In this document: in pieces, positions 659-18,900 of the stretch | Position numbering within the stretch: the stretch's first letter is position 1 | Layout: every line of letters starts with the position of its first letter | Virus record (IMG/VR): IMGVR_UViG_3300025118_000085 | Location: 1-30,762 of that record | DNA: 30,762 nt | DNA from: a virus | Direction: 5' to 3' (one strand) | Made by a program: the position numbers and the translations under genes | The notes under the pieces: model-generated | Seen by the model: only the letters and a program-made list of their open reading frames with translations | Databases searched by the model: none | What the model was told of the DNA's origin: nothing

Positions 659-3600
659 TTACCATCCCACAGGGGCGTTTTTCTTTCTTGATTTTTTCTT
701 TTGATAATCTGCAGCGCCAACATCATAAGGGCTATATCCCATAAAATTATGCGCTCTTTGCCACATAGCGTTTTGCTCATCTAAAGCAGATTGTATATTT
801 CTACTCTTTTTAAAGTAGTTATATGTAGGCGCGTTTGTTATAGATTGTATAGTTTGAGCAACAGCTTCTAATCCACTTGTATTATCTAAACTGAAACCTT
901 TTTGAAGGATAGATTTTTTATTATATTTATAAGTGTTACCTGAAGCATCAGTTCCACTAAATTTAGATCCTATAGTTGGTGATATATTTAACAATGCTTC
1001 GCCAACCTCACTAAAATCACCACGATAACCTTTTTTGTTTTGTTCTGCAAATTTCATCACAGCGTTTTTGAAACCAGCTAATACAGCTCCGGATATACCC
1101 ATACCTCTTAAGAACGAATCTGCCATAGTATTAGCTGCTCTTACTTTTTTCTTAGCTAGTAATGGCTCATCATCACTCATAGTCCACATTGCAAACGCGG
1201 CTGATTGCAGTCCAGCGAATATAGCTGATTGTACCGCCCAATAATAAGATATTTTATTCATTTTATGAGTAAGAGAATTTTCTCCATAGAAACCTTCATA
1301 TCTACCTTTAGATATATCAAGCAATTCCTTCATACCTATTCTATTCATCTGCATTGGAGTGTTTCCAAATGGCAATACTAATCTACCTGCTACTGACACT
1401 TGTTGTTGCGATAATAAATCAGGTCTAGAAGATTGCTGGGTTTTCTCTGCTATAGCTTGAAAATCTATCCAAGCTTTTCTCTCTGCCTCTTTAGTTTTTA
1501 AACCTTGCCTTTCATACATCTTAATTCTATTACGATAATATGTAGCACCACCTGAAGCTATAGCAAAACTATCTGCAATTTTTGTTGGTAAATAACCGTG
1601 TTTCAAAATAGTAGCTAATACTCTTTTACTAGATTCATAAAATCCTTTTTTACCCGAACTTGCCGCTAACGCTAGTTCAGCTTCTGATACATTTATTTGT
1701 AAGCCAGCGCGCCTTTGTTTTAACATAGGAGAATTCATAATATGCATAAAATCTTTCCAGTATTGCGGTTGATTCGCAAACGCTTTAGCTGCGGCGAAAG
1801 GATTGTTCTCACCATGATTAATAAAGTTAACAGTAGATATTAACTGTAAGAAAGCTGATCTAGTATTTAAATGCATGATAGCGCCAGTAGCTCCATTTAA
1901 ATAATCCATTACCTCATTACTAAGTCTATCTAAATTTTCTGCCCTCATTCTACCACTTTCCATTCTATAAAGCATACCATCCATAGCTTCTCTCCATCTA
2001 GGACCAAGTTCAGATTCCATTTTGGCTAAATTTTCTTCAGAAAATATTTCGTTTTTAGCTTCTATCCAATCTTTTATATATTTATCTCTACCAATAGTTC
2101 TACCAGTTTCACTAACTTCTGTAGCTAAAGTTTCTCCCCACCAATACTCACTAGGTTTTTTTAATCCAGTTTCAATTTTAGTAAGATTAGCTACTGATTC
2201 TGCATAAGCTTGTAACTTAGGATTATTAGCAACATGTTTTAATAATTTATCTTTTGACGTTTTAGTTAAACCAGGTACTTCAAAACCCGCTTTGTTCCAT
2301 ATGTAAACTCTAGCTGCTTGATCAACTGTAAAACTAGTTCCTTCAATTGGTTTATCTAATGATTTTACCACACCCTTATTCTGCTTACGTAACGCCATGT
2401 AGTCATTAAGTATAGCTTGTCTAGCGTTATTTAAATCGTTAATACCTCTTTCAAATGGTTTGTGAAAATTTTTGATAAACCACTTTCTATTTTCTATACC
2501 TTTCTTACCTCTACCCAACAATGGTTCTATTAACAACTCTAAATCAGCAGCAGAATCTGGTATAAAAAATTTCCTTCTTTTTTTATCACTACCCCTCATT
2601 TTTCCTTCAGCTGTAGAAAATCTCTTTTTAGATCCAATATCTAAAGAATGTTCTAAAATCGCGTTAAGTTGCTTATTCAAATCTCCTTTAGCAGCTCTTG
2701 CTTGTTGCACTTTTGACTTAATGTCTAATTGATCTAAAACATGTTTAACAGCTTTAACGTTAGATATCGCGTCATCAACAAAATACATATCGTTATACCC
2801 TTCAGAAAACTTTTCTAACATCCACATTGCTTTAGCTTCACCAGTACTATTACCTAGTCCAGTTATATTTTTTAAAGGTATATTAACACCTTCACTTTTT
2901 AACCACTCATGTATTGCTGTAGCACTTTCTGGAGCTCTGGCTGTTAATATAAAAACATTTTCATTACCAAATTTTTTAATTTGATTTTTAAGTTTTTGCA
3001 TTAACGGTCCTGGTTTTCCTTCTGTAACTTTGTTAAAATCAGTGAAATCTAACTTCCATCCTTCAGCTCTTAATTGTTCACCTACAACTGGCCAATCTTT
3101 AGAAGCTATCTTTCTAGTTTCTTTTCCTTTAGTTGCTATAATATAATTTTCGCTTACACCTACGGTTTCGTCAAAGTCAAAAGTACTCAAACCCCTTTTC
3201 TTTTTGTACATCTTTCTACCTTCACTTAAAGCTTTATCTACGTTTTTAAGTTTATTTATAAGTTCTTTATTTGTTTCTCCTTTTGACGCTTTATAACCAG
3301 TTACTTTCTCAAGTTGTTTAGCGTTATCTTCTTTTACTATTTTATTACTTTCTTTATTTTTAACGTTCGATTCAAATTTAACAGTTTCAACCGTAATAAC
3401 TTCAGGGTTATTTCTTCTTACAAGATTAATAACTTCAAGTATTTGTTTCTTACTATACTTGTCCATTAATCTCTCTCCAATAGTTTGTCCTGGTATTTTA
3501 GATGTTAAATCTATCATCTCAAAAGATATACCTGGTCTGTACATAATATTAGCTATAGAAGACACAGCGCCTAGAGGATGTTTTTTAAACCAATCTACAA

Positions 3601-6600
3601 AACCTGTTTTTCCACCATGAAGTGGAGAATCATACACTTGCATATCCTCAAACCTTGTAATAGCTTGCTCGAATAATTTACTAAGTACTCCTAATTCTTT
3701 TTTAAACTGAGTCTTATTATTTAATGTTCTAAACACAGTGTCTAAGAACATAGCCGTATGATTTAACAATTGTAATTGATGTTCGCCTCTAAATCTAGTT
3801 CCTTCGATAGTTTTACTTTTAGGACGCTTTTTGACAGCTGTAGGATCTTTTATACCTAATATAGAACTAACAGATGTTGTGGTAGCTGTACCTTTTATTA
3901 TACCTTCACCAATCTCAGTCTGCATTCTTAGATGCCTCATCACTGCTTTTATAGCTTTAGTTCGAGCTTCTCCAGGTTTTGCTTTCTTTATAATATTTCT
4001 CAATCCTGTTAAATGAAATTCTCTAAGCGTTCTGTTCGCTTCTATAACTTCTTCAAGAGTAGAAGCTTTCAAACCTTTTTTAGCATTCTTCTTGTTTGCC
4101 GCTTTAGAAGCTTCAGATCCTTTAGTTAAATAATTTCTAGCGTAATTATATATATCTACATTACTACGTGTCATTTTTCCACTAGAATTTACACTTTCAA
4201 GCATCCACTTTGCTAAATCAGTCTTGAACGTACCCATATTAACAATACTAACGTGCTTTAATGCTTTTCGCATTTTTGCACTTAGATTCTTGGTGCTAGG
4301 TTTCCACTTCTTACCAGTTATAATCTTATACATTGTGGGGAAATCACCTGTCTTACCTTCTGGGTGCTTTATATTAGTCCAAATTTCTTCACCGTTTTTG
4401 TTTTTACCATGATACTGTTGCCCGCCTCTAACGCCTTGCCCTAAAGTTCTTAGTATTAATGTATGAAATTTCTTTGGTATCCCATCTGGATAAAGACTAG
4501 CTACTTCACCCATTACATCCATAAAGTCCTTATACTCATCTGTGTTTTTTCTCCAATCCTTTGAACCTTCCTCTAAAATATTCTTTAATTCTGGTACTAA
4601 TTTTGTTAAAACTTTATTCTCCTTTAATTGTTTAACGATATCATTATATCTTGTTCTTTCTAGTACTTCTTGTTCAAATTTACCTTCTTTTATTAAAGCT
4701 TTTATCTGCACGTCAAGATTTCCCTTACCTGTCTCAGCTATTCTTATGATTTCAGCTAACTCTTTTACAAAAGGATGATTCATACCTATTCCCTCTCTTT
4801 TAAACTCTTCACTAGTTAACAAGGTCATTAAACTACCGTAAGTAACAGGATCTTTGTTGTCAACTAAATCTTTTTTAAGTTTACTTAATAGAATTTCAGA
4901 AACTTCACCTTTAGCAGCTGTACCTTCCGCTTTACCAGCTCTAACACTATTAATAAATCTATTAATATTATCTTTTACTTCAAACTGTTGAGGTATGCCA
5001 GACTCTTCTCTTTCTTTATCGAGTTTATTTAATTCTGATTCTTTTTCATTTAATAACTTTTCAATCTTATTATCTACTTCAAATGTTGATTTATTTTCTT
5101 TACCTAAACTTTCTCTTTTTCTTTCTAATGTATTTAAATCTTCATTTATTCTCTCAATATTCTCAAGTATAGGTTTTCTTTTCTCAGTAGACTCTTCCAT
5201 GTGCCGTCTAACCGTTTGATTAGTTATCATTCTACCTATTTCAGCTATAATACCATTTATACGAGCAGATGAAATATCAGTTGATTTTCTAACCTGTGAT
5301 TTTATTCTCGATGTAATAACCTTATCTATAACCAGTTTACCATTCTCTAGTATTTTTTCACCATCTTTAGTTTTATAAACAACATCTATGCCTAATCTAT
5401 CTAAGAACCACTCTTGTGCGTTTTCTTTTGGTAATAATATTTTCTTTTGAACTTTTAAACCCGCTTTCTTACCGGTTTTTTTAGCTGTTGCTAGTGCTTT
5501 TTTTCCTTTCCTAGTAGTTTTCCCGTATAGAACACCATCCATTAGAATACCCTTAACTAGAGTAGATAAACCTTCTATTTCAGGTATACCAGTTTTAAGC
5601 ATAGCTCCTTTTGGTAAAGCATTATATATAACCCTCCAATTTTCTGCAATAAACTCAGCTTGTTTTTGAATTGTTTTTGGTCCGTCTACAACTGGTTTAC
5701 CATTTTTTAATATTCTTTTACCGTCCTTAGTTTTATAAGCAACGCCAAACATTTTCTTAGTAAGTTCTGGTGATAGATCAAACAGTTTAGCAAAATTAAC
5801 AGTTCCATCTAATATCCAAGGTGAATTTTTAAAAGAATCAATAATACCTTTTAAATGAGTACCTGTAACTGCCTGTAGATCTTTAGCGCTTTTTAATGCG
5901 TCTGCTAAATAAACTCCTTTACCTATCTCTGCCACTTCACCAGTATATCCAGCATCACCTTCTATTTCTCTAGCTTTTTCTAAGCCTACTTTAGGTTTGT
6001 TTACATCTAGACCTCTATCAAGTATACCGCCCTCTCCTCCTGCGCGATGTCCTAGATTTTGCATTATATACTGTGTGAGAGGAATATTTGGATTCTCAAT
6101 TTGATCATAAGCTTTTAACAGTTTCTTTTCACCAGTTTCCTTCTCAATTCTTTTACCAGGAGCAGGGTATGTTAGTTTTAAAACCTCTGCCCTTAAGTCT
6201 TGTATAAAGTCCGCCTTTGTATAAGCCTGTTCTTTTTGAGATTCTTCCCATTCTTTACCTCTCCAATATTTATTAGCAGTTTTTTGTACAAACGCTTCCA
6301 TTTCCGCAACTATCTTATTCTTTCTATTTTGCAGACTTAATTTTTTATTTTCATATATTTCTTGAACTCTATCAGATTGTTCTTGTAAAAGATCTTCTTC
6401 GGTTTTTACAACTTTTCCAGCTCTAATATCACCAATAATTTCCTCCCATCTTTTCATTAATGGCGCTCTCTGATCATTATAATCTTTTACTGTAATTTTA
6501 TTTTTACTTACACCTTTGGCTAATTTTCCAAGTTGTAATTTAATTCGCAATTGTTCTGCTACAGCACCTTTACTAGCGTTTAAAACTATACCATCTTTTT

Positions 6601-9600
6601 TAGATGTAGTGTATTTACCATTTGGACTTATTTTTATATCTTTGAATTTTTCAACTAACCTATCTACCATCTTTTTATTATATCCACCTTTACCCCAAGA
6701 TGTCGACATTCTAGATAAAAATTGCATTAAACTCGCACCATCATTAATATCTAGTTTAGGTGCAAATTTTTCAAGCCCCCACCTAGAACCAACAAACAAC
6801 TTTTCACGTAAACGATTAAAGTTTTGTTTAATCTGACCACCTAAATTATTAGTGACTAAAAGTGTTTCACCAATTGGACTATCAAATAATTGTAAAATAT
6901 TCCCAACATATTCTTCATCAAAAGTACTTTTATCTTGTGTTTTTTTGTATATTTTTTCAATAAGTTCTTCTACAGTACCTTTACCAAGAACTTTCTCAAC
7001 TTCACCTTGAATCTGATGTTTTAACTTAGTTGCTAATTGTGGATCTGCTAAAAGTCGCTTAATCATTATAACGTGAAAAATCTCATGTGGTAAAGTTCCT
7101 GCTTTAAGTTTTCTAGCATCTACAATAACTCTTGTTGGTTTACCTTTTACGCCTGGTATAACTTTAGCGTCTTCACCTTTTTCTAGACCTTTACGGCTTT
7201 TTTGAATAGTAGCCTCAAAAGCTACTTCACCATTATGTTGTTCGGCGTATCGCTTATTAAATCTTTCAAATATCCTCTCTGTATCTCTACATAATAAATT
7301 TATATCTTGATATTTATAAGTTTCATTTAAAACATCTAGTTGTCTAGTACATTCGTTAGCTATTTCAAAATGTTTTGCGGCTTCTTGCTTATCACCCCTT
7401 GTTAAGGCTTCCATACCTAGTGCACTAGATTCTGCCATTAAATCTTGCTTACCTTTAATAGTGAACTTTAAATCAGCAGGTTTCATATGTGTAAAACCTA
7501 AGGCTCCGAATAGCAAAAGATCTTGAAGGGCTTTTCTCCCAACTTTACGGTAAGCAAAATTACCATCTTCATCAAAGTAATTTTCTTCCCAGAAAGTTTT
7601 AAAATCTTCATTATCCATCATATCACTAAAAACTGCTTCTAATGGAGTTGCCACTTGAGCAGCTACCATACCACCAACACCTCCTAAAAGATTTTTTTCT
7701 AAAAACGGATTAAGGGCAGCGCCTGTTGCGCCTTTCATTCTCCAAGGTACTAGTGATCTAAACGCTGTACCACCTGCGTAAAAACCAAGTCCTGTACCAG
7801 TAGGCATATCAACCCCGAAAAGCGGATCCATTAACTGCATTTTACCTTCTTCAACAAGGGCATAAAAACCATGGAATTTTAGTTTATCTAACGTACCACC
7901 AGTTAATTTTACTAAACCTTTACGTTTAAGATATACATCTAATGATACGCCTGCTTCTTTAGCTGCAGTTTTCACTGCTTTCTCTGTTAAACCTCTTGCT
8001 AACTTTGTCTTTTCTAAAAACCTTTTACTCTTTTTTACACGTTCAGTTACATAAAGAACGTTTCTAAATTTTTCGAAATATGACAATAAACGGGCACCCT
8101 TCAAAATACCTCCTGTTGCCGCGCCTAAAAATGCAAATTCTCCAATCATAGGTACGAACGAACCTGCAGCGTAAGAAAAATCCTCCCAAAAACTCATTTG
8201 GAAATTCTCTTTTTGTGATTCAGATAATTTAATTGCTGGAGTGTTTGAGAGTGCTAAAAACTCGTTAACATCTGTCAACAGACTTTCCATATTAGTTAGT
8301 CTGTTCATATCTGTATTGCCAAGATAATTTTTTGTATATTCACCACCAAAATGATCAGTTATACCTTGAGCAGCTAACATCCAATTAGGTTTTTCTATAC
8401 TACCAGGGTTAAGATTACAAAGATATATATCTTGCCAAGCTTCTTTTCTTGCTAATATACTACTATAACTTTGTCTAGCAGATATAAACGCGTTAACTTT
8501 ATTATCATCGGTTATAGGTTCACCCATAAACGTTTTTGAACCAGGCACAAACTCCCATCCTAATTCATCTTTTTCAGAAAATTCAGCACCAAGAGTTGGT
8601 TGAAGAGCGGTTTTCCCAGGTTTAGTAATTCGTTTTTCTCCCTGTAAACTAAATCCTTGTAAATATAATAATGGTGCATTTTCAAGTTCAACTGTACCTG
8701 TTATTGATTTTACTCCTCTTATTTGAACTTTATCATATTTATTAGTTGGTTGTATTATATCTTCTGAAGTTAGTATTTCTCCAGTTTCACTATTTCTAAT
8801 ATTAAAACCATCTATCCCTTCACTAATTTTTATTAAATTTATCAAATTACCTTCTTTACCGATAGAAGTATGGTACGTGGTGTTGACTTTTGTATTTCGT
8901 AAATATTTCATGTAGTCTTCTTCCCCTATCATGAACATCTCATGCGCAACTTTAAGTTTCTCATGATCTACAGGGCCTTCTTCTGTGCTCCATAGTTCAG
9001 CTATAAGACTTGCTTCTAATTTGTAATCTTCTGCAACATTAACAAAGTTATCTGATTTAAGATCTTCTTCAGTATTTAAATCTGGATTATATTTTCTACC
9101 AGTAGTTAGGTCAATAAAAAAAGCATGGCTTTTATCTGTTAGTACAGTACCATAATCGTTAACCAAAACCTGGGCATCATCTATTTTTTTTGTAAGCTCA
9201 ATATACTCTTTGGAACTCTTATCTCTTATACCTTTTCTCTCTTTTGTCCACCGTAATATATCTCGATTAAGTAAAGCAACACTTTTTAAATCAGGATCAG
9301 TAATGCTGCCATACGCTGCGTCCTCTAAAATTTGTATGTCTTCATCAAAATCCTCAGGATCTCTCTTTCGTTTCACGTATGCTTCTAGTTGCTCCAATTT
9401 GTGACTATCAGTCTCTTTATCTACCAACGTTTGTATTGCGTGATTCCAAACTTTATCTTGCTGGTATTCTGATAATCCATCTTGCTCTAAAATATCTCCA
9501 CCCCACCAATCTTGAAACATATTTAAATCACCTTTTTCTCCGAGTAACTCTACACCATACTCATCAACTATATCCCGCTTTACATCATTAAATATATCAG

Positions 9601-10273
9601 CTATACCTTTTTTATTTTGATTTTCATATAACCATGTAAAAGGTTTAAAACTTTTAGTACCATAACCTAATTCTGCAGCCGCACTTATTATTTTATCACG
9701 CGCTTTGCTTGTGAAATCAGTGTGGATTTTATTTCTCAACCTCACTATTTCTTTAGAAGTTTCTAAATCTTGGTTTTCGTTTATAAATTTAGCCACTACT
9801 TCTTGCGAAGTGTTCGTGGAAATTTGCATTGTTTCTTTGTTAGGGGCGACCACATTAATTGTAGAAAAACTATTATGATGAGTATCCGGTTTAAATTCAA
9901 AACCGTACCTACCATATCTCGCCTCGTATTGCTTAGCTAGCCGCTTAACATTTTTTTCTATTTTGTCTAATGAAAGACTCGACGATGCGGTCGCTATAGC
10001 TGTATTAAAAACATCTTCGTTCACTTTTTCGTATTTAAAATGACTTATACCTTTTTGTAAACCTAAAAAATCTCCAATACGACTAGTGGTTGTTATTTTA
10101 TCTTTATATTTTAATAAAAAATTTTCTATAGTTAATTCTTCACCTTCTGCAGCTTCAGCGATAGTGCTTATATTAAACTCCTTACCATCCACGTTAAATC
10201 TCGCGTCAGCTATCTCCTGTTGACTAAGAGGTTCTATTTTAGGTTCTGTTTTTTGTTCGTCTACTGGAATCAT
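659..10273 (-). CDS. Giant polyvalent internal virion (ejection) protein with zincin and HAD domains
   Basis: This 3204-residue protein is probably packaged in the particle and injected with the DNA, like T7 gp16 or the giant polyvalent proteins of other phages; that role is inferred from size, domains and position. Visible parts: hydrophobic Gly/Ala-rich stretches near 695-742 and 858-878; a zinc-metallopeptidase motif HEIFH (H1063, E1064, H1067) with acidic residues at E1120-E1121 that could supply the third ligand; a duplicated YKTKDG block near 1510 and 1629; a charged coiled coil near 1690-1770; and a HAD-type phosphatase domain with FDFDET (D2366, D2368, T2370), T2444 in FILTARAP, K2481 and D2500-D2501 in MYFVDD. 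The last 300 residues hold a block with RPDLLSQQQ and LPFGNTPMQ near 2935-2990, of a kind seen in large polyvalent proteins, and more hydrophobic helices near 3010-3031 and 3052-3075. No DxDGD polymerase motif is present. The ATG lies 1 nt after the upstream TAG. Confidence 0.85.
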   Translation of the reverse strand: MIPVDEQKTEPKIEPLSQQEIADARFNVDGKEFNISTIAEAAEGEELTIENFLLKYKDKITTTSRIGDFLGLQKGISHFKYEKVNEDVFNTAIATASSSLSLDKIEKNVKRLAKQYEARYGRYGFEFKPDTHHNSFSTINVVAPNKETMQISTNTSQEVVAKFINENQDLETSKEIVRLRNKIHTDFTSKARDKIISAAAELGYGTKSFKPFTWLYENQNKKGIADIFNDVKRDIVDEYGVELLGEKGDLNMFQDWWGGDILEQDGLSEYQQDKVWNHAIQTLVDKETDSHKLEQLEAYVKRKRDPEDFDEDIQILEDAAYGSITDPDLKSVALLNRDILRWTKERKGIRDKSSKEYIELTKKIDDAQVLVNDYGTVLTDKSHAFFIDLTTGRKYNPDLNTEEDLKSDNFVNVAEDYKLEASLIAELWSTEEGPVDHEKLKVAHEMFMIGEEDYMKYLRNTKVNTTYHTSIGKEGNLINLIKISEGIDGFNIRNSETGEILTSEDIIQPTNKYDKVQIRGVKSITGTVELENAPLLYLQGFSLQGEKRITKPGKTALQPTLGAEFSEKDELGWEFVPGSKTFMGEPITDDNKVNAFISARQSYSSILARKEAWQDIYLCNLNPGSIEKPNWMLAAQGITDHFGGEYTKNYLGNTDMNRLTNMESLLTDVNEFLALSNTPAIKLSESQKENFQMSFWEDFSYAAGSFVPMIGEFAFLGAATGGILKGARLLSYFEKFRNVLYVTERVKKSKRFLEKTKLARGLTEKAVKTAAKEAGVSLDVYLKRKGLVKLTGGTLDKLKFHGFYALVEEGKMQLMDPLFGVDMPTGTGLGFYAGGTAFRSLVPWRMKGATGAALNPFLEKNLLGGVGGMVAAQVATPLEAVFSDMMDNEDFKTFWEENYFDEDGNFAYRKVGRKALQDLLLFGALGFTHMKPADLKFTIKGKQDLMAESSALGMEALTRGDKQEAAKHFEIANECTRQLDVLNETYKYQDINLLCRDTERIFERFNKRYAEQHNGEVAFEATIQKSRKGLEKGEDAKVIPGVKGKPTRVIVDARKLKAGTLPHEIFHVIMIKRLLADPQLATKLKHQIQGEVEKVLGKGTVEELIEKIYKKTQDKSTFDEEYVGNILQLFDSPIGETLLVTNNLGGQIKQNFNRLREKLFVGSRWGLEKFAPKLDINDGASLMQFLSRMSTSWGKGGYNKKMVDRLVEKFKDIKISPNGKYTTSKKDGIVLNASKGAVAEQLRIKLQLGKLAKGVSKNKITVKDYNDQRAPLMKRWEEIIGDIRAGKVVKTEEDLLQEQSDRVQEIYENKKLSLQNRKNKIVAEMEAFVQKTANKYWRGKEWEESQKEQAYTKADFIQDLRAEVLKLTYPAPGKRIEKETGEKKLLKAYDQIENPNIPLTQYIMQNLGHRAGGEGGILDRGLDVNKPKVGLEKAREIEGDAGYTGEVAEIGKGVYLADALKSAKDLQAVTGTHLKGIIDSFKNSPWILDGTVNFAKLFDLSPELTKKMFGVAYKTKDGKRILKNGKPVVDGPKTIQKQAEFIAENWRVIYNALPKGAMLKTGIPEIEGLSTLVKGILMDGVLYGKTTRKGKKALATAKKTGKKAGLKVQKKILLPKENAQEWFLDRLGIDVVYKTKDGEKILENGKLVIDKVITSRIKSQVRKSTDISSARINGIIAEIGRMITNQTVRRHMEESTEKRKPILENIERINEDLNTLERKRESLGKENKSTFEVDNKIEKLLNEKESELNKLDKEREESGIPQQFEVKDNINRFINSVRAGKAEGTAAKGEVSEILLSKLKKDLVDNKDPVTYGSLMTLLTSEEFKREGIGMNHPFVKELAEIIRIAETGKGNLDVQIKALIKEGKFEQEVLERTRYNDIVKQLKENKVLTKLVPELKNILEEGSKDWRKNTDEYKDFMDVMGEVASLYPDGIPKKFHTLILRTLGQGVRGGQQYHGKNKNGEEIWTNIKHPEGKTGDFPTMYKIITGKKWKPSTKNLSAKMRKALKHVSIVNMGTFKTDLAKWMLESVNSSGKMTRSNVDIYNYARNYLTKGSEASKAANKKNAKKGLKASTLEEVIEANRTLREFHLTGLRNIIKKAKPGEARTKAIKAVMRHLRMQTEIGEGIIKGTATTTSVSSILGIKDPTAVKKRPKSKTIEGTRFRGEHQLQLLNHTAMFLDTVFRTLNNKTQFKKELGVLSKLFEQAITRFEDMQVYDSPLHGGKTGFVDWFKKHPLGAVSSIANIMYRPGISFEMIDLTSKIPGQTIGERLMDKYSKKQILEVINLVRRNNPEVITVETVKFESNVKNKESNKIVKEDNAKQLEKVTGYKASKGETNKELINKLKNVDKALSEGRKMYKKKRGLSTFDFDETVGVSENYIIATKGKETRKIASKDWPVVGEQLRAEGWKLDFTDFNKVTEGKPGPLMQKLKNQIKKFGNENVFILTARAPESATAIHEWLKSEGVNIPLKNITGLGNSTGEAKAMWMLEKFSEGYNDMYFVDDAISNVKAVKHVLDQLDIKSKVQQARAAKGDLNKQLNAILEHSLDIGSKKRFSTAEGKMRGSDKKRRKFFIPDSAADLELLIEPLLGRGKKGIENRKWFIKNFHKPFERGINDLNNARQAILNDYMALRKQNKGVVKSLDKPIEGTSFTVDQAARVYIWNKAGFEVPGLTKTSKDKLLKHVANNPKLQAYAESVANLTKIETGLKKPSEYWWGETLATEVSETGRTIGRDKYIKDWIEAKNEIFSEENLAKMESELGPRWREAMDGMLYRMESGRMRAENLDRLSNEVMDYLNGATGAIMHLNTRSAFLQLISTVNFINHGENNPFAAAKAFANQPQYWKDFMHIMNSPMLKQRRAGLQINVSEAELALAASSGKKGFYESSKRVLATILKHGYLPTKIADSFAIASGGATYYRNRIKMYERQGLKTKEAERKAWIDFQAIAEKTQQSSRPDLLSQQQVSVAGRLVLPFGNTPMQMNRIGMKELLDISKGRYEGFYGENSLTHKMNKISYYWAVQSAIFAGLQSAAFAMWTMSDDEPLLAKKKVRAANTMADSFLRGMGISGAVLAGFKNAVMKFAEQNKKGYRGDFSEVGEALLNISPTIGSKFSGTDASGNTYKYNKKSILQKGFSLDNTSGLEAVAQTIQSITNAPTYNYFKKSRNIQSALDEQNAMWQRAHNFMGYSPYDVGAADYQKKKSRKKNAPVGW

Positions 10274-10274
10274 A

Positions 10275-11588
10275 CTATTTTTGTAAAGCCTTAATTAAAT
10301 CGTTAACATCGTTACCGGTAAAAGCTCTTATTGCATCATTTGATATCTCTCTATTCTTAACGAATTCGAGACTTTTCCATTTCACTGTACCATCGCTCGC
10401 TGTCCATTTGTAATTTTCATTTTTCTTCTTATTTTTCTTTGGACTATTATCAGGATCCCATGTAAAATAACTATCTGATCCATCAAGACTATAGATAATT
10501 TGACCTTCTAATTTATCGTTTATCTTTTTTAAATGGGCAACTTGATCTTTAACTGGTATTTCTTTTTTAGCTATAACGTTATATGTTTTTGGTCCAGTTT
10601 TAGTTTTCGATTGATAGGATCTACTATGTACACCTTTGTAGTGTTGCATTATATATTCTTCAAAAGCTTTTTTAAACGTTTTACCATCGTTTCCTTTAAC
10701 TGTTCCTAAATCTTCATTCCTTAATCTTTCTTTTTCATCATATATCGCTTTGGGATTAGTTATACCATTATTTCTCATCCATTTATCTATGAATTTTTCA
10801 CCACCAAAAAAATCAGAATCAAACGCGGCCATACCAACACCTTCATTACCTAAACTTCGGAGTATTTGTCTAACTCCTTGCCCAATTTGTGGCCCTGCCG
10901 ACCTCCAATCCAGACCTTGATTCGCATTTACCATAAGACCTTGTTGTAACTCTCCAAACCCAACATCACCTTCACCTGTTACAAACTTATTATGTGCCAT
11001 TTCAGAAAGTCTAACTCTTTTCTTTGGATCATCATCTTTTCTAGTTGGATCAATAAACCAAGCTCCTTTTTCATCGAATTCTATATTGTTTTTTAAATAA
11101 TCATTATTCCCAGATAATAAATTGGTTAAAGCATCTCTACTTACAGGTGAATTCCACTCAGATATATCTAAATTATTTAATATACCCTCCTTACCATTTT
11201 CTCTTAGTAATAAAAAAGCTTCAAGATCTTCGTTAATAAGTGTTAATCCATTTTGCGCAGCATTCATTTGCTGAGTATATACATCGAAATTTGGGTCTTT
11301 ATAACTAACGCTTTGTACCTTATTAGCGGCGTTTGCATACATTCTTTTCATCGCGATTGCCGCACTTTTTAGTTTGTCTTGTAATTGTACATCTACTTTA
11401 GAAAAATCTATTTGAGGTAATTCCAATATAGCTTTTTTTACCGCAGCTTCATTTGCTTTCACTTGTTTAGTATACTCGTCTATTAGTGGTACTAATACCT
11501 CACTATAATCAATAAAGTCACTTTGACTTTCATACATCTTTGCAGATATATCTAATAAAGTTGTGTCTGGTCCGTATCCTTTTGCCAT
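10275..11588 (-). CDS. Probable internal virion protein, 437 aa
   Basis: I do not recognise a named family. The product is hydrophilic and mostly helical in appearance, with no signal peptide or membrane segment. Residues 1-160 look like long alternating helices (runs such as EYTKQVKANEAAVKKAI), the middle is Gly-rich (GEGDVGFGELQQGL, GPQIGQGVRQILRSLG), and the C-terminal 120 residues are strongly basic with many Lys and Tyr. It sits between the 216-residue T7 gp14-like protein and the giant protein, the slot of T7 gp15 in the gp14-gp15-gp16 ejection set, so a role as an internal core or ejection protein is inferred from position. It ends in TAG, one base before the ATG of the giant gene, which suggests coupled translation. 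The start is an ATG preceded by an A-rich leader with no Shine-Dalgarno. Confidence 0.7.
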   Translation of the reverse strand: MAKGYGPDTTLLDISAKMYESQSDFIDYSEVLVPLIDEYTKQVKANEAAVKKAILELPQIDFSKVDVQLQDKLKSAAIAMKRMYANAANKVQSVSYKDPNFDVYTQQMNAAQNGLTLINEDLEAFLLLRENGKEGILNNLDISEWNSPVSRDALTNLLSGNNDYLKNNIEFDEKGAWFIDPTRKDDDPKKRVRLSEMAHNKFVTGEGDVGFGELQQGLMVNANQGLDWRSAGPQIGQGVRQILRSLGNEGVGMAAFDSDFFGGEKFIDKWMRNNGITNPKAIYDEKERLRNEDLGTVKGNDGKTFKKAFEEYIMQHYKGVHSRSYQSKTKTGPKTYNVIAKKEIPVKDQVAHLKKINDKLEGQIIYSLDGSDSYFTWDPDNSPKKNKKKNENYKWTASDGTVKWKSLEFVKNREISNDAIRAFTGNDVNDLIKALQK

Positions 11589-11605: not shown

Positions 11606-12256
11606 TTAACCACTAATCCCTGCTCCCGCAACAGAACCAAGTGTCTGCATTAGAGCCATATTAGCATCATTCCTAGCTTTTTGAGCCGCTGTTAATCTTT
11701 GCATATCCATGCCAAAAATAGTACCAGTTTTTCTATATTCTAATTGTCTAGATAACTCTTCACCTTGTAATTCCATTTGCTGAACTCCCATAGCGCCTCT
11801 TGCTCGCATTTTTTGATTAGCCGCTTCTTGTTGTCCAATAGACGCAGAAGCTTGCTGTGCTTGAATTTGTCCTTGATTAGATATTACTTGAGCAAGACCA
11901 GCTACACCAGCACCACCCGCCGTACCACGCAAACTCTCTAATACATTAGCTTGTTGTTGCATTGACTGTTGCTTCATAAACTGTGCTTGCTTTTGGTTTA
12001 TAGTTAAATCTTCATATACATTTTCTAAATTAGAAGATAAATTACTAGTATCTAAACCCTCCCAAGCTGCTCTTGATTTTTTTTGCGCGGCTTGAGCTGC
12101 TCTTATCTCAGCTCTTCTTTTACCACCTCCCATTAAATGACTAGCTACTCCCAAAGCGCCTGCAGCCGCAGGTAGCATCCAAGGTGCGAACGGCACTTTA
12201 AACGGAGATCTTTTCATTTTAAACGGTCCTTTCATTTTATATACACCTAAAGCCAT
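11606..12256 (-). CDS. Probable internal virion protein, T7 gp14-like in character
   Basis: This 216-residue protein has a basic, proline-containing N-terminus (KMKGPFKMKRSPFKVPF), then one hydrophobic Ala/Gly segment at about residues 26-43 (WMLPAAAGALGVASHLMGG), then a long Gln/Ala/Met-rich helical body (QKQAQFMKQQSMQQQANVL and QIQAQQASASIGQQEAANQ), ending in a second Gly/Ala stretch. The same character, one membrane-active helix plus a Gln/Ala-rich body, is seen in short-tailed-phage internal proteins such as T7 gp14 that are ejected and inserted in the outer membrane. The family assignment is by character and context, not by alignment. It is followed within 17 nt by the 437-residue gene. 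The leader is A-rich without a Shine-Dalgarno. A tape-measure fragment is less likely given its size and the podovirus-like setting. Confidence 0.65.
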   Translation of the reverse strand: MALGVYKMKGPFKMKRSPFKVPFAPWMLPAAAGALGVASHLMGGGKRRAEIRAAQAAQKKSRAAWEGLDTSNLSSNLENVYEDLTINQKQAQFMKQQSMQQQANVLESLRGTAGGAGVAGLAQVISNQGQIQAQQASASIGQQEAANQKMRARGAMGVQQMELQGEELSRQLEYRKTGTIFGMDMQRLTAAQKARNDANMALMQTLGSVAGAGISG

Positions 12257-12722: not shown

Positions 12723-15700
12723 TTATACTATAGATAGAAAGTTATCTAAACTAAGTGTTGAGGTAAAACTATCTATACCAAATGTTGTTATTGTTCCCTT
12801 ACCCGTAATAGTACATGTACCAGTAGGAAGTCCTCCGTTAGCGCTAAACGTAGCTGTTAAACCACTTATATTCATATCAAACATACTACTAAACGCTAAT
12901 ATATCATCTTTTTGTGTAGTTTGTTTTGAAGAAAGCTCAACGGTTGTTCCTACAATACTTTTCACTGTTACTGTTTCGTATATATCTATATTACTTCCAG
13001 TAACTACCATTCCAACTCTTATACCTGCTACGTTATTTAAATGAATAATACTTCTATCATTCAAATCACCTTCTCTAATTGTTTTTGTAACTGTGTTTAA
13101 AGTGTTAGAAAAATCGGATGCTTCAGAATCGATACTAGAAAATCTCGGTTCTCTAGATGCTTCTAAATTACCATCACTTTTTATAGCTGTCATATTTATA
13201 GTAATATTTCCATTTGCTCCTGCGGTTCTATTAGCTTTGCCTGTAAGTGTAATTGTACCTGCTGTTGTTACATTTGCAAGGGCTGATGAAGGAGAGATTT
13301 GCACAATTGGATTTACATATTGATAAATAGAACACGTAGAAAGCACGTCACTATTTAGCAACGCCATTAAAGGTTGTATTGTTATATCATATCTATTATC
13401 TGGCATTTCAAATGATAATTCTGTCTCATCAGCTATTGTTTGACTATCTGAAACTGCTACGGTAACACCATCAGCATTAACACCATTACTTGATATTATT
13501 GGGTCATTACCATCAACACCAGTACCAGTTATCTTCATACTATCTTCTAAATCGTCGTTATAATCTAAATCTAGAGAAGTAGTACCAGAGGCTACTGTTT
13601 TTAACGTTCTTTTAAACTTTTCTAATACTGGGAATCTTTGAGTAAAAGAATAAGTACCACTATCTGGTATTGCTACCTCTGTTATATCTCCTTCTTTTGC
13701 AAAAGTAATACTATCATCAACTGCAAAAGTTAAGTGTGAAGAAATAGTTATATATGTAGTCGATGTTTCATTTATAGCGTCAACATTAGTTTTAACAGGA
13801 TCTGATATACCCGTTATTTTCACACCTCTTCTTTGGTCGTTTAATACTACCATTCCAATTTCAAGATTTCTTGCGTCATTCAGTTCTAAAGTAGCAGAAG
13901 CGCTAGCGATTGTTTTTACAGTTTTAGTAATACTATTAGTATAAGGTAAAACATTTCTACCATTTTTATCTTTTATAGTTAAAGAGAAAGTAGATCCTGG
14001 AGTACCAATAATACTTATGTCCCTTGAATCTCCGGCGCTATCAATGCTAAATTTATCAACAAGTAACGCTGTTATTTCTTTCATTTCCGTAGATTTAACC
14101 ACTTCTTTAGTTATTTTATTTGTAAATATAATATTGTGTCCATCTTCTTCAAGTACATCAAATCCAGTGTTTTTATAACTAATATTAAACGTTTTTTCAA
14201 TAACATAACCGTTAGCATTTTTACTTTCTGATTCAACCTTTATTTTATAATTTTCACTACCAGGGAAATTCATATTTAGCGAAGGACTTTTTGAGTAGTA
14301 GTAGTCTTCGTTAGTTTTAAAAGTTATATTAAAAATATTTTTAGTGGAATCTAATAGTATATCACCGCTAAATTTTAATATTTTTTGAGTTCCATTTTCT
14401 TCTTCGGTTAAAAACATACTATCGTTACCAACCACCTCTACCGTTTGGTTATCATTTTGAATATAGTGTGCTTTACAGTTAATAATTGCTTCCTCACAAA
14501 TATTAAGATTTGATGGATTAGATAACTTTGAAGGCGGTAAGGAGCAACAGTTTAATGTACCAGCAGGTTGTAGTTGAATTGATGCCATAGTTGCAATAGG
14601 GTTTGAAGCCCCAGCTGGGACGTGGTTTGGTGGCACTTCCGCTCTCCAAGGATAACATCCTAATGGGTAGCAGTTTGGATCATCTACACAATATTTTTCC
14701 CAAGGTAAACTCATTGGAAGAGATAACCCAAGACCTCTTGCGCTTACTCCACTATTTAAATAATTATCTAAATTCGCAGTATTACCAAAAGGTTTATTGT
14801 TATTGATTATCCCACTACTTGCATGTCTTTCAAATTTTATATAATATCTTCCTCCTATTGAAAGATCTAAATTTACTATACTATTACTTCCAGATATATG
14901 AGTTCCATTTTTTAATTTCCATTTCACAGAACAACCGTTCCAAGTAGGGCATCCGGTAAACACGTGCCACCATTCGTATTCCCAATGACCAATGAAATTT
15001 TCCTGTATATCCCATATTTTAATATGTAGTTTTTTTCCTGACATATTATTTGATGGGCCATAAGTACTATGCCAACTATTAAGTAAAGTATCTCGTTTAT
15101 TAATATATAATGTTAACCAAGGGTATCCAATAGTATCCCAAGGACCTTGATTATAAGCGTGGCCTGATTGCCAATAACCTGTAGTGGCTACTTCAGCTGG
15201 AAATCCAACGCCAAGTCCTTGACTCTTCTTCCATCTATAATTATAATCTATTCCAGGTGAAGAAGTACATTTAAACATTCTTATAGGTCTTACTGAGGCG
15301 GTGGAACATCTATCCATTATTTGTGGATTACCAGCTACAACATTAACCCCTGCGGCTATAGTATCAAAAACAGTTCCAGGAGGGCCCGCTAAAACAGAAG
15401 AAGTCCAATAAAACGCAGATGCAGGATGACTAGTGCTTGTACTAAGATCAGCTATATTAATTATATTGTTAATTACAGAATTAGGACCTAAATTCGATAC
15501 TAATTCTGTCATTTCTGTTAAAGATGGTAGAAACCAATCTTTAGTTCCGTTGGGACCAGCATAGTCAACACATAGTTGAGCTGCTAAATCGTGTATGTCT
15601 AATACTGGATTTGTAGGACTACCAGTATATCCACCCCAAGATGTTGGGTATGAGTTTAAATGAATAGTATTATTACTACCATCCCCAATAAACTGACCAT

Positions 15701-15968
15701 TATCAGTAGGTGATATTATTTCTTTATGTACCCCAAATTCTGCGCCGGGTATAGCGTTTGCAATACCTGTACAGTCAAACGCTTGTGTTTGCCCTAAAGT
15801 TGTCGATACTTGAGCTCTTTGTGTCGTAGAAACATCAACAGGAGCAGCTTCAAAATAATAATTTGTACTATTATTACCCTGTCCTGGAATGGAGAATATT
15901 ATACCTCCGCCAGGACCAGTATCACCTATTTGATAAGGCGCGTTTGTAATTGGATTAGTGCAACTCAT
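12723..15968 (-). CDS. Tail fibre/adhesin with N-terminal DUF1566 (Lcl C-terminal-like) domain
   Basis: This 1081-residue protein probably binds the host surface. Residues 10-233 match the layout of DUF1566/Lcl_C domains, which adopt a C-type-lectin-like fold in adhesins: IGDTGPGGGIIF at 14-25, DWFLPSLTEM at 144-153, FYWTSSV at 186-192, and SVRPIRMF at 225-232 as the closing strand. Residues 234-510 form a Trp- and Cys-rich region (motifs GCPTWNGCSVKW, YCVDDPNCYPLGCYP, NCC) that could carry disulfides. The remainder is Ser/Thr-rich and beta-like, with three diverged copies of a module of about 70 residues starting near 683, 786 and 961, each with a GM(V/K) turn and an ITISS or VELSS-type strand. 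It follows the big tail protein by 20 nt. Attachment by its C-terminus or N-terminus cannot be decided. The fibre/adhesin role is inferred from domain type and position. Confidence 0.65.
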   Translation of the reverse strand: MSCTNPITNAPYQIGDTGPGGGIIFSIPGQGNNSTNYYFEAAPVDVSTTQRAQVSTTLGQTQAFDCTGIANAIPGAEFGVHKEIISPTDNGQFIGDGSNNTIHLNSYPTSWGGYTGSPTNPVLDIHDLAAQLCVDYAGPNGTKDWFLPSLTEMTELVSNLGPNSVINNIINIADLSTSTSHPASAFYWTSSVLAGPPGTVFDTIAAGVNVVAGNPQIMDRCSTASVRPIRMFKCTSSPGIDYNYRWKKSQGLGVGFPAEVATTGYWQSGHAYNQGPWDTIGYPWLTLYINKRDTLLNSWHSTYGPSNNMSGKKLHIKIWDIQENFIGHWEYEWWHVFTGCPTWNGCSVKWKLKNGTHISGSNSIVNLDLSIGGRYYIKFERHASSGIINNNKPFGNTANLDNYLNSGVSARGLGLSLPMSLPWEKYCVDDPNCYPLGCYPWRAEVPPNHVPAGASNPIATMASIQLQPAGTLNCCSLPPSKLSNPSNLNICEEAIINCKAHYIQNDNQTVEVVGNDSMFLTEEENGTQKILKFSGDILLDSTKNIFNITFKTNEDYYYSKSPSLNMNFPGSENYKIKVESESKNANGYVIEKTFNISYKNTGFDVLEEDGHNIIFTNKITKEVVKSTEMKEITALLVDKFSIDSAGDSRDISIIGTPGSTFSLTIKDKNGRNVLPYTNSITKTVKTIASASATLELNDARNLEIGMVVLNDQRRGVKITGISDPVKTNVDAINETSTTYITISSHLTFAVDDSITFAKEGDITEVAIPDSGTYSFTQRFPVLEKFKRTLKTVASGTTSLDLDYNDDLEDSMKITGTGVDGNDPIISSNGVNADGVTVAVSDSQTIADETELSFEMPDNRYDITIQPLMALLNSDVLSTCSIYQYVNPIVQISPSSALANVTTAGTITLTGKANRTAGANGNITINMTAIKSDGNLEASREPRFSSIDSEASDFSNTLNTVTKTIREGDLNDRSIIHLNNVAGIRVGMVVTGSNIDIYETVTVKSIVGTTVELSSKQTTQKDDILAFSSMFDMNISGLTATFSANGGLPTGTCTITGKGTITTFGIDSFTSTLSLDNFLSIV

Positions 15969-15988: not shown

Positions 15989-18900
15989 TTAAACGGTAGT
16001 AATTACAGGTGGGTTCGTTACTGTCCCTATTCCTTGTGTTGAAAATTCTTTAGTATCTAGATTACCACCAGCACCAGATATTGGAGCATTACTACCATCT
16101 GGTACTATTCCGTTTCTCCATATAGTTTCTTCCCCTATTATATAGTTAAACCATTTACCTTCTTTATTTATAAACTCAGCTACAGTACCAGTCTGTTGAT
16201 CTGTTATTACTGAATTAACATACCATCCTAACTCTGGTTGGTTATTATAGTATTTATTATCAGTTGACCAATTTACTGTACCACTACTATCCGTATAGCC
16301 AACTCCAGCTAAATTTTCTATTATCTTAGATTGACTCCCTTCGTAATTCAATGTAGTAAAACTTTTTATAACACTAGGTAGATCATTGAATAAAACTGTT
16401 ATTGACGAAGAAGTATTAATAGTTCCAGTATTATCATAAAAACTATTTCTATCTACAGAATCTTCGTGATGTTTCCATAATCTACCATCTTGCGCTGTAT
16501 AATATTCATTATTCAAACTAAACCCAACTTCTGGATTAAAAGCTTTAAAACTCACCCATCCTTTAGATCTTTCACTAAAACTTACAGTCGGAGTTGGAAC
16601 GTAATCTTTTAAAGTAATATTATATAATGCTTTTCTACTATCGTAATTACCTATTAATGTGTTTACAGTTTTCAAATTATCTGCAAACCAATCTTTCATG
16701 CCGTGATCAGATATTGGGGTTAAACCGTCTCTTGATAATCTCATTACCGCACCTCTTTCTCTATCTGTAAAGTAAGCTCTAAATGCTTCTGAAGCAAACG
16801 ATTCTGGATTTTTAGATATTCCATATTCACCAACAAAAGGTATACTATTACCTAGAACATTACTTGTAGCTGTTATATTTTTAGTATCATCAGCATTGTA
16901 TAAAGCATCTTTATTAGATAATACTTTTAAAATCTTGTCTTCACATAGTGTAATTAAATCAGTATCCCTAGTGTGTAGTTTTTGAATACTACCATAACCT
17001 GGATTTAAATCCTTAGTAATATTCTCAGCCATTATAAACTGGTTTAATCTATTTACTCCGTTCATAGAATTATATATACCAGAGAATATTAAACCATTTT
17101 TTCTATTTTCTTCTTTATATTGTTCTGCTAATGTAGTAGATGCTTTAACACCTTTATCTATGGTTACAGCGTTAAACAGATCTCTAACTCTATTCGATTC
17201 TACACCATTACCAAAAGAGTAACAGTTATAATAATCTAACAATTGTTTTTCGCCATGCGCTAAACTACTAACACATATACTCATAGAACCTAAAATAGGA
17301 TTAAGAGGATTTTGTGTTACTGTTGCAGTGACTATACTTCCATCTGGATTTTTAAACGATATTACTTCATTAGCAGCCATAATAACCATTTGATCAAACA
17401 AAATACCTGTTGCGGGGGGAGAAGTAGAATTTGGAAATGGATCACAAACACTTCCAGTAACAGATACTACCGTGACTTCTGAAAAATTAGTAGTAACATA
17501 ATCAACTGTAGCACCAATTTGTATATACAATTCTTCTGTATCGTCTTTCATGTGAACAGGATACGCTTGACTAACTTCGTGATAAATATCTAATCCAACA
17601 TCTTCTTTTGGTTCTGTCTCCCAAATAGCGGGTCTTGTTGGCATCTCTTGTTTTTGATCGTAAAAAGGTTCAACAAACTCTATACCAGCTCTAGATATAT
17701 CAGTTCCACCACCATTAGCGTATTTAGTAACAGCATCATTAGCGCCAGGACCAACTGGGGCAGAGTTAACATTTGGTGGATCAGTAACTATATAACCACT
17801 CGCTCCTTGAAAAAGCTTCATAGGAGTTCCATTTGGATTAGTCAAAGGATCTTTAGAACCAGGTTCTATTAATTGTAATCTAAATCTTACCCTCATATCT
17901 ACCCAAGATCTGCTCACAGCAGCGGCAATACCCAATCCCATAGGGTTATACCCCACATGATCATAATTTTTATGATAAGTTCTTGAAACACTACCAATCT
18001 CATACTCAATATTATCTGGATCATCTATAAATCTAAATATTTTCCCAGCGTGGGATATTCTTTGTACAAATTCTGCTTCACCTTGGTGTAAACCTTCAAA
18101 GTTTCGCCATGTTCCTGTGGAACTGGAGGTAGTAGAATGGCCTAGGTATGGCCAATTCCTCGTCCCAATCCAAGATACATCCATTTCGGTATTACCTTTG
18201 ACCGCCCCTATTCCAGTATCATTTTTTAAGTACACAAGAGCTCTTACGTTAAGTGAAACATGTTGTTGGTTAAAAGTACTATACGTTGTCCACTCATTAT
18301 AGGTTTGGTTAGTTGCACTCAACGAGGAACCACTATCCTTTATCTCGGTGCCTAAACAGTGATACACAGGTTCTTGATCTATAAACCACCAACCACCTTC
18401 GTTACCACCAGTACTACCAGCGTTACTATTAGCCCATGGAGTGCCTGGTGATATTGCACTCCCACCAGTATAATGTGCTAAACTTAGATAATTTTTATAA
18501 AAATCATAATATTCTCCTTTAGCTCTCCATGGAGTTCCAATAGTTGTTAAATTAGAATATCTAGGATAATGTACCGCAACACCACCGTTAGCAGCTGTTG
18601 CGGTGGGATTTACAAAACCAGTACCATCCCACACAAGTCCTGAGGGTGTAGTAGAGCTACTGGTAGAGCTTGATCCACCTATATCGTATGCTATAAAATC
18701 TTCTCCAAATCTAGCGTCATCTAATACAGAAGTATAATGATCATCGAAGTTAGATAATTGTTGGCCCATAATTGTTTCACCAGTAGTATCATTAGGATCC
18801 GCTGTAGAGTCTTTACCCATATAGTAAAATAATTTCTGTCCAGTAGTATGTCTAGAGGTTACTCGTGCATCAGCTTTAATATATCTCCTAAAAATATCAT

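Follow-up and report, generated by a model that had tools for sequence, protein, structure and literature searches.

A 3204-residue gene closing the structural operon of an uncultivated virus encodes a putative polyvalent-type ejection protein with zincin and HAD phosphatase signatures

The DNA analyzed here (the window) is an uncultivated viral contig of 30.8 kb, represented by a linear record of 30,762 bases. A single open reading frame, intact from ATG to stop and with no internal stops, occupies 31% of it and encodes a protein of about 356 kDa (Table 1), exactly as the original prediction had described when it assigned almost a third of the window to one gene. This giant closes, as its last gene, a structural operon on the minus strand with the order terminase end, portal, 400-aa protein, capsid, 279-, 241-, 382-, 1946-, 1081-, 132-, 216- and 437-aa proteins, and giant. 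The terminase, portal and virion structural names come from PHROG matches, and "capsid", "ring" and "muzzle" were read from gene order and size; in these terms, the 241- and 382-aa products are two ring/tail-type virion proteins and the 1946-aa product is muzzle-like. The 1081-aa protein (positions 12723-15968) matched no PHROG at E 0.1, whereas most of the neighbouring proteins did, and its start resembles by eye a lectin-type tail domain. The muzzle-like protein (positions 15989-21829) corresponds to an open frame of 3318 aa in L191, the record that carries the relative L102, and the two are 41-55% identical in separate pieces, suggesting that this protein also grows through insertions.

Table 1. 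Positions of the giant gene, its segments and the two genes preceding it in the operon
Feature	Position	Strand	Basis or remark
Giant ORF, 3204 aa	659-10273	minus	ORF and translation; 110 relatives; putative polyvalent-type cargo/ejection protein
Residues 1-560, N-terminal part	8594..10273	minus	no detectable relatives
Residues 586-1018, helical segment with weakly hydrophobic stretch 706-724	7220..8518	minus	about 30 relatives, hydropathy, model
Residues 1019-1130, zincin-like metallopeptidase domain, later invariant Glu E1121	6884..7219	minus	invariant columns, predicted strands/helices
HEIFH motif, residues 1063-1067	7073..7087	minus	sequence motif
Residues 1215-1899, middle part	4577..6631	minus	about 3 relatives among 110; probable coiled coil at about 1696-1765
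Residues 1900-2345	3239..4576	minus	in about 23 of 110 relatives; modelled part mostly helical
Residues 2360-2528, HAD phosphatase, motifs I-IV	2690..3196	minus	alignment, catalytic residues, fold match
DFDET, HAD motif I, residues 2366-2370	3164..3178	minus	kinase inserted just after it in about 19 relatives
Residues 2529-3186, all-helical C-terminal block, polyvalent-protein type	716..2689	minus	alignment, AlphaFold2 model, structural matches
437-aa protein	10275..11588	minus	position of medium ejection protein, as phi40:1 gp100 (in virions); basis is position
216-aa protein	11606..12256	minus	homologous to phi40:1 gp099, profile match E 4e-24

The structural genes of the window resemble those of short-tailed Flavobacterium (elemo), Maribacter and Cellulophaga (phi38:1) phages. 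The portal is 36-53% identical to those of Cellulophaga phi38:1, Flavobacterium elemo, Maribacter Panino and an uncultured spring-water phage, each of which has a very large gene at the position of the giant, and the window virus is a short-tailed phage, probably of a Bacteroidota host. The last three genes of the operon have phi40:1 gp099, gp100 and gp101 as positional counterparts, and the GenBank record of phi40:1 bears for gp097-gp101 the remark "annotation based on experimental MS/MS proteomics analysis". The 216-aa protein is also homologous, at the profile level, to its elemo and Panino counterparts, and a search for homologues of the 437-aa protein among the recovered loci gave none. 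The arrangement is that of the podovirus ejection set, in which small, medium and giant internal virion proteins end the structural operon; the order is that of phi40:1 gp099-gp101 and the small member is homologous. By analogy with phi40:1, the giant would be packaged in the virion of the window virus. Public annotations of such giants look misleading, as in "reticulocyte binding/rhoptry protein" and a DUF3293 note (MW202828.1 741-12320; elemo gp18).

Three IMG/VR scans yielded 110 non-redundant giants, 90 of them complete and spanning 2166-4072 aa (median 2963), and a profile of the C-terminus detected at least 525 loci in uncultivated viral contigs of IMG/VR. The capsid proteins of the relatives were 56-77% identical to that of the window in 39 of the 40 records tested, and the portals of eight relatives were 68-79% identical to the window portal, which indicates that the carriers of the giants are one related virus group although the giant itself differs greatly among them. 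From N- to C-terminus, the giants share a plan of a variable N-terminus, a weakly hydrophobic helical segment, a zincin, a variable middle, a HAD phosphatase and an all-helical C-terminus of about 650 aa. Coverage of the window giant among the 110 sequences is uneven, with about 30 relatives over residues 560-940, about 23 over 1900-2345, at most 67 in the zincin zone and nearly all at the C-terminus; across most of the N-terminal half, the first 19 relatives were 21-26% identical or showed no detectable similarity. Direct family searches with the whole giant against Pfam, PHROGs, NCBIfam and PDB gave no significant match, the C-terminal 1000 aa matched none of 50,697 phages by tblastn, and profiles of the HAD domain and the C-terminus were not significant against the giants of MW202828, elemo, phi38:1 and Panino. 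PADLOC, applied to 15 relatives, returned nothing beyond weak single matches. The C-terminal block was also found in six contigs of bacterial MAGs (L181-L186, assigned to Sphingobacteriales, Flavobacteriaceae, Bacteroidetes, Aliivibrio, Maricaulis and Ilumatobacteraceae); three of them are labelled Bacteroidota, and all six are probably phage contigs binned into MAGs.

The peptidase motif noted in the original prediction is real and lies well beyond chance, since exactly one HEXXH is present in 89 of the 90 complete giants, when 0.026 would be expected per shuffled sequence. In an alignment of 30 sequences, H1063, E1064, H1067 and E1121, 58 residues further on, are invariant columns, in keeping with the HEXXH and the downstream Glu zinc ligand expected of zincins. 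The model of this region places strands ahead of the HEXXH helix and a later helix bearing E1121, with a mean pLDDT of 69 (moderate), and Foldseek with the model of residues 560-1230 gave no PDB match with E <1e-3. The zincin profile also matches the elemo giant (E 7e-5), which is annotated as a structural protein. The sole exception among the 90, L128, reads HEVLGH. This form, with one extra residue in the motif and the rest of the domain retained, was observed in two relatives (L005/L128 and L014/L063). Processing of the chain has been proposed as the role of zincins in polyvalent proteins (Iyer et al. 2017, PMC5512222), and by analogy the zincin of the window giant fits those described there.

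The predicted phosphatase domain was likewise borne out. A full set of HAD motifs I-IV (DxDx[TV], T/S, K, DD) is made up of D2366 and D2368 in DFDET, T2444, K2481, D2500 and D2501, and the last four residues (motifs II-IV) do not vary in any of the 88 aligned relatives. The domain is found in 108 of the 110 giants, is 53-86% identical to that of the window in the first 19 relatives and is conserved more than the C-terminal block. The structural model aligns with HAD phosphatases in most of the top rows, with middling Z scores of 7-8.6 over about 100-125 residues, and a Foldseek search of the HAD-containing model against PDB gave nothing with E <1e-3. A phosphatase activity is predicted for the window giant. 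The synonymous four-fold sites of the HAD domain are saturated (0.48 identity) while the protein is conserved, which indicates that selection, and not recent homogenisation, keeps the domain; recent gene conversion was rejected on the same grounds.

These data bear on whether the giant could be a plain ejection or channel protein, packaged and injected, whose main job is to form a trans-envelope conduit and in which the zincin and HAD folds either persist as relics or serve a structural purpose. The operon position is that of an ejection protein, the model is mostly helical and two relatives carry the disrupted HEXXH, all of which such a protein would accommodate. However, neither the invariance of HAD motifs II-IV in the 88 aligned relatives nor a HEXXH intact in 89 of 90 giants is expected of relics, and the saturated four-fold sites of a conserved HAD protein sequence argue that selection maintains the domain, so that we judge this explanation unlikely. 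The length, the helical content and the weakly hydrophobic segment of the giant would also suit a tape-measure or a conventional tail protein. We regard this as extremely improbable, because the operon has the make-up of a short-tailed virus (its portal, capsid, ring-like and muzzle-like proteins are related to those of podovirus-like Flavobacteriia phages), none of the genes in the window was recognised as coding for a tail tube, giants of 2166 to 4072 aa occur in viruses whose capsids are related, and both enzyme signatures are nearly universal.

In about 19 relatives, a P-loop kinase of about 200 aa lies between HAD motif I and the remaining HAD domain, in the cap position, and in L145 a kinase stands just after the HAD domain instead of being nested in it. 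The kinase matches Zeta_toxin (best E 9e-13) and AAA_33 in Pfam and polynucleotide kinase in PHROGs; its profile found nothing among PDB sequences. The kinase-HAD region of one relative matched 8 of 50,697 phage records, through the kinase only and with the HAD part unmatched, and kinases of this kind that stand alone are present in marine Kyanoviridae. The window giant has no kinase and therefore lacks the P-loop kinase adjoining a HAD domain that would make it a polynucleotide kinase-phosphatase.

The original prediction had pointed to RPDLLSQQQ (residue 2950) and LPFGNTPMQ (residue 2967) as marks of a C-terminal block of large-polyvalent-protein type, and both lie inside the conserved C-terminal block of about 650 aa, which is all helical in an AlphaFold2 model of residues 2005-3204 (mean pLDDT 74.7). 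Foldseek with the C-terminal model against viral models gave 49 matches with E <1e-3. The four best viral structural matches are to uncultured viruses at 26-55% identity, that is, to close relatives; the more distant matches, about 12% identical, include several under the names large polyvalent protein associated domain, ART-PolyVal, MuF C-terminal or PolyVal ADP-ribosyltransferase, whereas an internal virion protein of Xylella phage Cota fell just past the 1e-3 threshold. These model-based fold matches are the best independent support for reading the giant as a polyvalent protein. At the sequence level, the window giant matched none of the LPD models of Pfam, and an LPD14 match was found in 1 of 30 relatives scanned. 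Polyvalent proteins combine at least two functionally distinct domains in one chain, and the giant carries a zincin, a HAD phosphatase and the C-terminal helical block. At the C-terminal end, many relatives carry a Cys/His-rich tail (C..RC..C..H) resembling a small zinc-binding element, which the window giant lacks.

Outside these domains the giant is much less conserved. Residues 1-560 matched nothing among the 110 giants or in a direct IMG/VR scan, a scan of IMG/VR with the middle part found no relatives, and no known domain was found in residues 1-560 and 1214-1900. The original prediction that large parts would match nothing recognisable holds for these two stretches, which are almost without relatives, but not for residues of about 586-690, which belong to the segment shared by about 30 relatives, nor for 1900-2345. 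The new effector domains that the original prediction suspected in such parts may or may not be present in the two stretches. The first 400 aa of the window giant are one of 13 singletons among the 90 complete giants. The idea that every N-terminus is private was rejected, as 66 of the 90 first-400-aa segments join by single linkage; that of the window does not. For the 560-1230 zone, hhalign of the profile against the phi38:1 and MW202828 giants was not significant, single relatives gave weak matches (L017 against phi38:1, E 1e-4), and the VIA matches of the model were mostly generic helices. The hydrophobic helices predicted near both ends turned out to be marginal: the best 19-residue Kyte-Doolittle windows score 1.53 (residues 706-724, 22% of the way along the chain) and 1.07 (residues 3014-3032), both below the 1.6 that we took as the usual cut-off for membrane helices. 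The coiled coil listed in Table 1 was judged by eye from the appearance of the sequence.

The histories of the conserved modules also differ. Identities in the HAD domain and in the C-terminal block are nearly uncorrelated (r 0.15, 99 sequences), and this disagreement indicates that modules have been exchanged. In L102, the clearest case, the nucleotide sequence matches the window in just two places of the gene, the C-terminal 2.1 kb (84% identity) and a 264-bp part of the HAD domain (80%); the HAD block of L102, which contains a nested kinase, is only 60% identical at the protein level. In L102, L090, L008 and L144, an extra module of 190-530 aa separates the HAD domain from the C-terminal block, and after it the HAD tail, VLDQLDIKSxVQQA, occurs a second time, which suggests that these modules were inserted through homology at the HAD tail. 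We propose that the N-terminal and middle parts are an exchangeable, virus-specific payload.

The pattern of conservation also weighs on a further alternative, namely that the giant harbors a virion RNA polymerase or another transcription function, as do N4-like and crAss-like giants. Its position and size resemble those of the N4/crAss-like virion polymerases, some of which have a zincin (PMC5512222, PMC7886860). We consider this very unlikely, because the only acidic DxDxx motif noted, DFDET, is part of a complete HAD site, the domainless parts are the least conserved ones, unlike a polymerase core, and no polymerase family match to the giant was obtained in Pfam, PHROGs or other family searches.

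Taken together, these results make it likely that, among the ejection (cargo) proteins of a short-tailed phage, the giant is the third and the largest, and that it is of the polyvalent type. The polyvalent cargo protein of the original prediction is largely borne out: the zincin, the HAD domain, the fold neighbours of the C-terminus and the operon position shared with phi40:1 gp101 speak in favor, and the missing LPD match, the weakness of the hydrophobic helices, the moderate confidence of the zincin model and the lack of direct homology between the HAD domain or C-terminal block and the giants of cultured phages speak against. For the window virus we infer packaging, ejection, proteolysis and a phosphatase substrate along the following lines. 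The helical C-terminal block would pack the giant into the capsid, and the protein would leave through the portal and tail, ahead of the DNA and together with the 216- and 437-aa proteins, the weakly hydrophobic segment (residues 586-1018) possibly aiding the crossing of the envelope. The zincin might then cut the giant, or a host protein, and free domains, and the HAD phosphatase could act in the cytoplasm on a phosphorylated host or nucleic-acid substrate during the first minutes of infection. A possible but doubtful extension of this proposal is that the conserved core is a virion-delivered phosphotransfer device, consisting of the HAD phosphatase and, in some viruses, of a zeta/PNK-like kinase in its cap site, that is injected before viral gene expression starts and either reverses a host antiviral signal or repairs nucleic-acid ends cleaved by the host, with the N-terminal payload swapped by recombination at the HAD border.

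If the ejection reading holds, the giants would form an extensive family of injected multi-enzyme proteins that has gone unannotated and probably belongs to Bacteroidota phages. That conservation is stronger in the HAD domain than in the C-terminal block, and that some viruses nest a kinase inside this domain, speaks for a specific reaction early in infection, and the exchangeable flanks would be a source of unknown early effectors.

Among known systems, crAss001 has giant cargo proteins that are packaged and ejected (PMC10172136), and these, like the T7 and P22 ejection proteins, are large, helical and leave the capsid ahead of the DNA, as we propose for the giant; in contrast, their enzymes differ, and no sequence similarity was found in PDB and the family libraries. 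Gp101 of phi40:1/phi38:1 and gp18 of elemo share the operon position of the giant, gp101 being present in virions (MS/MS, phi40:1) and elemo gp18 sharing the zincin; however, the HAD domain and the C-terminal block are undetectable in them, and phi38:1 gp101 is 1691 aa long and has no HEXXH. The zeta-toxin/polynucleotide-kinase P-loop kinases are the superfamily of the nested kinase of about 19 relatives, absent from the window giant; zeta-like kinases have been described fused to MuF domains, and not nested in a phosphatase (PMC5512222). The large polyvalent proteins of the same survey resemble the giant in uniting several domains in a very long chain, in a zincin thought to process it and in the fold match of the C-terminus. 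That survey (Iyer et al. 2017, PMC5512222) does not use the word "phosphatase" in its main text, and the giant differs from those proteins in having no match to an LPD model and in that its most conserved enzyme is a HAD phosphatase.
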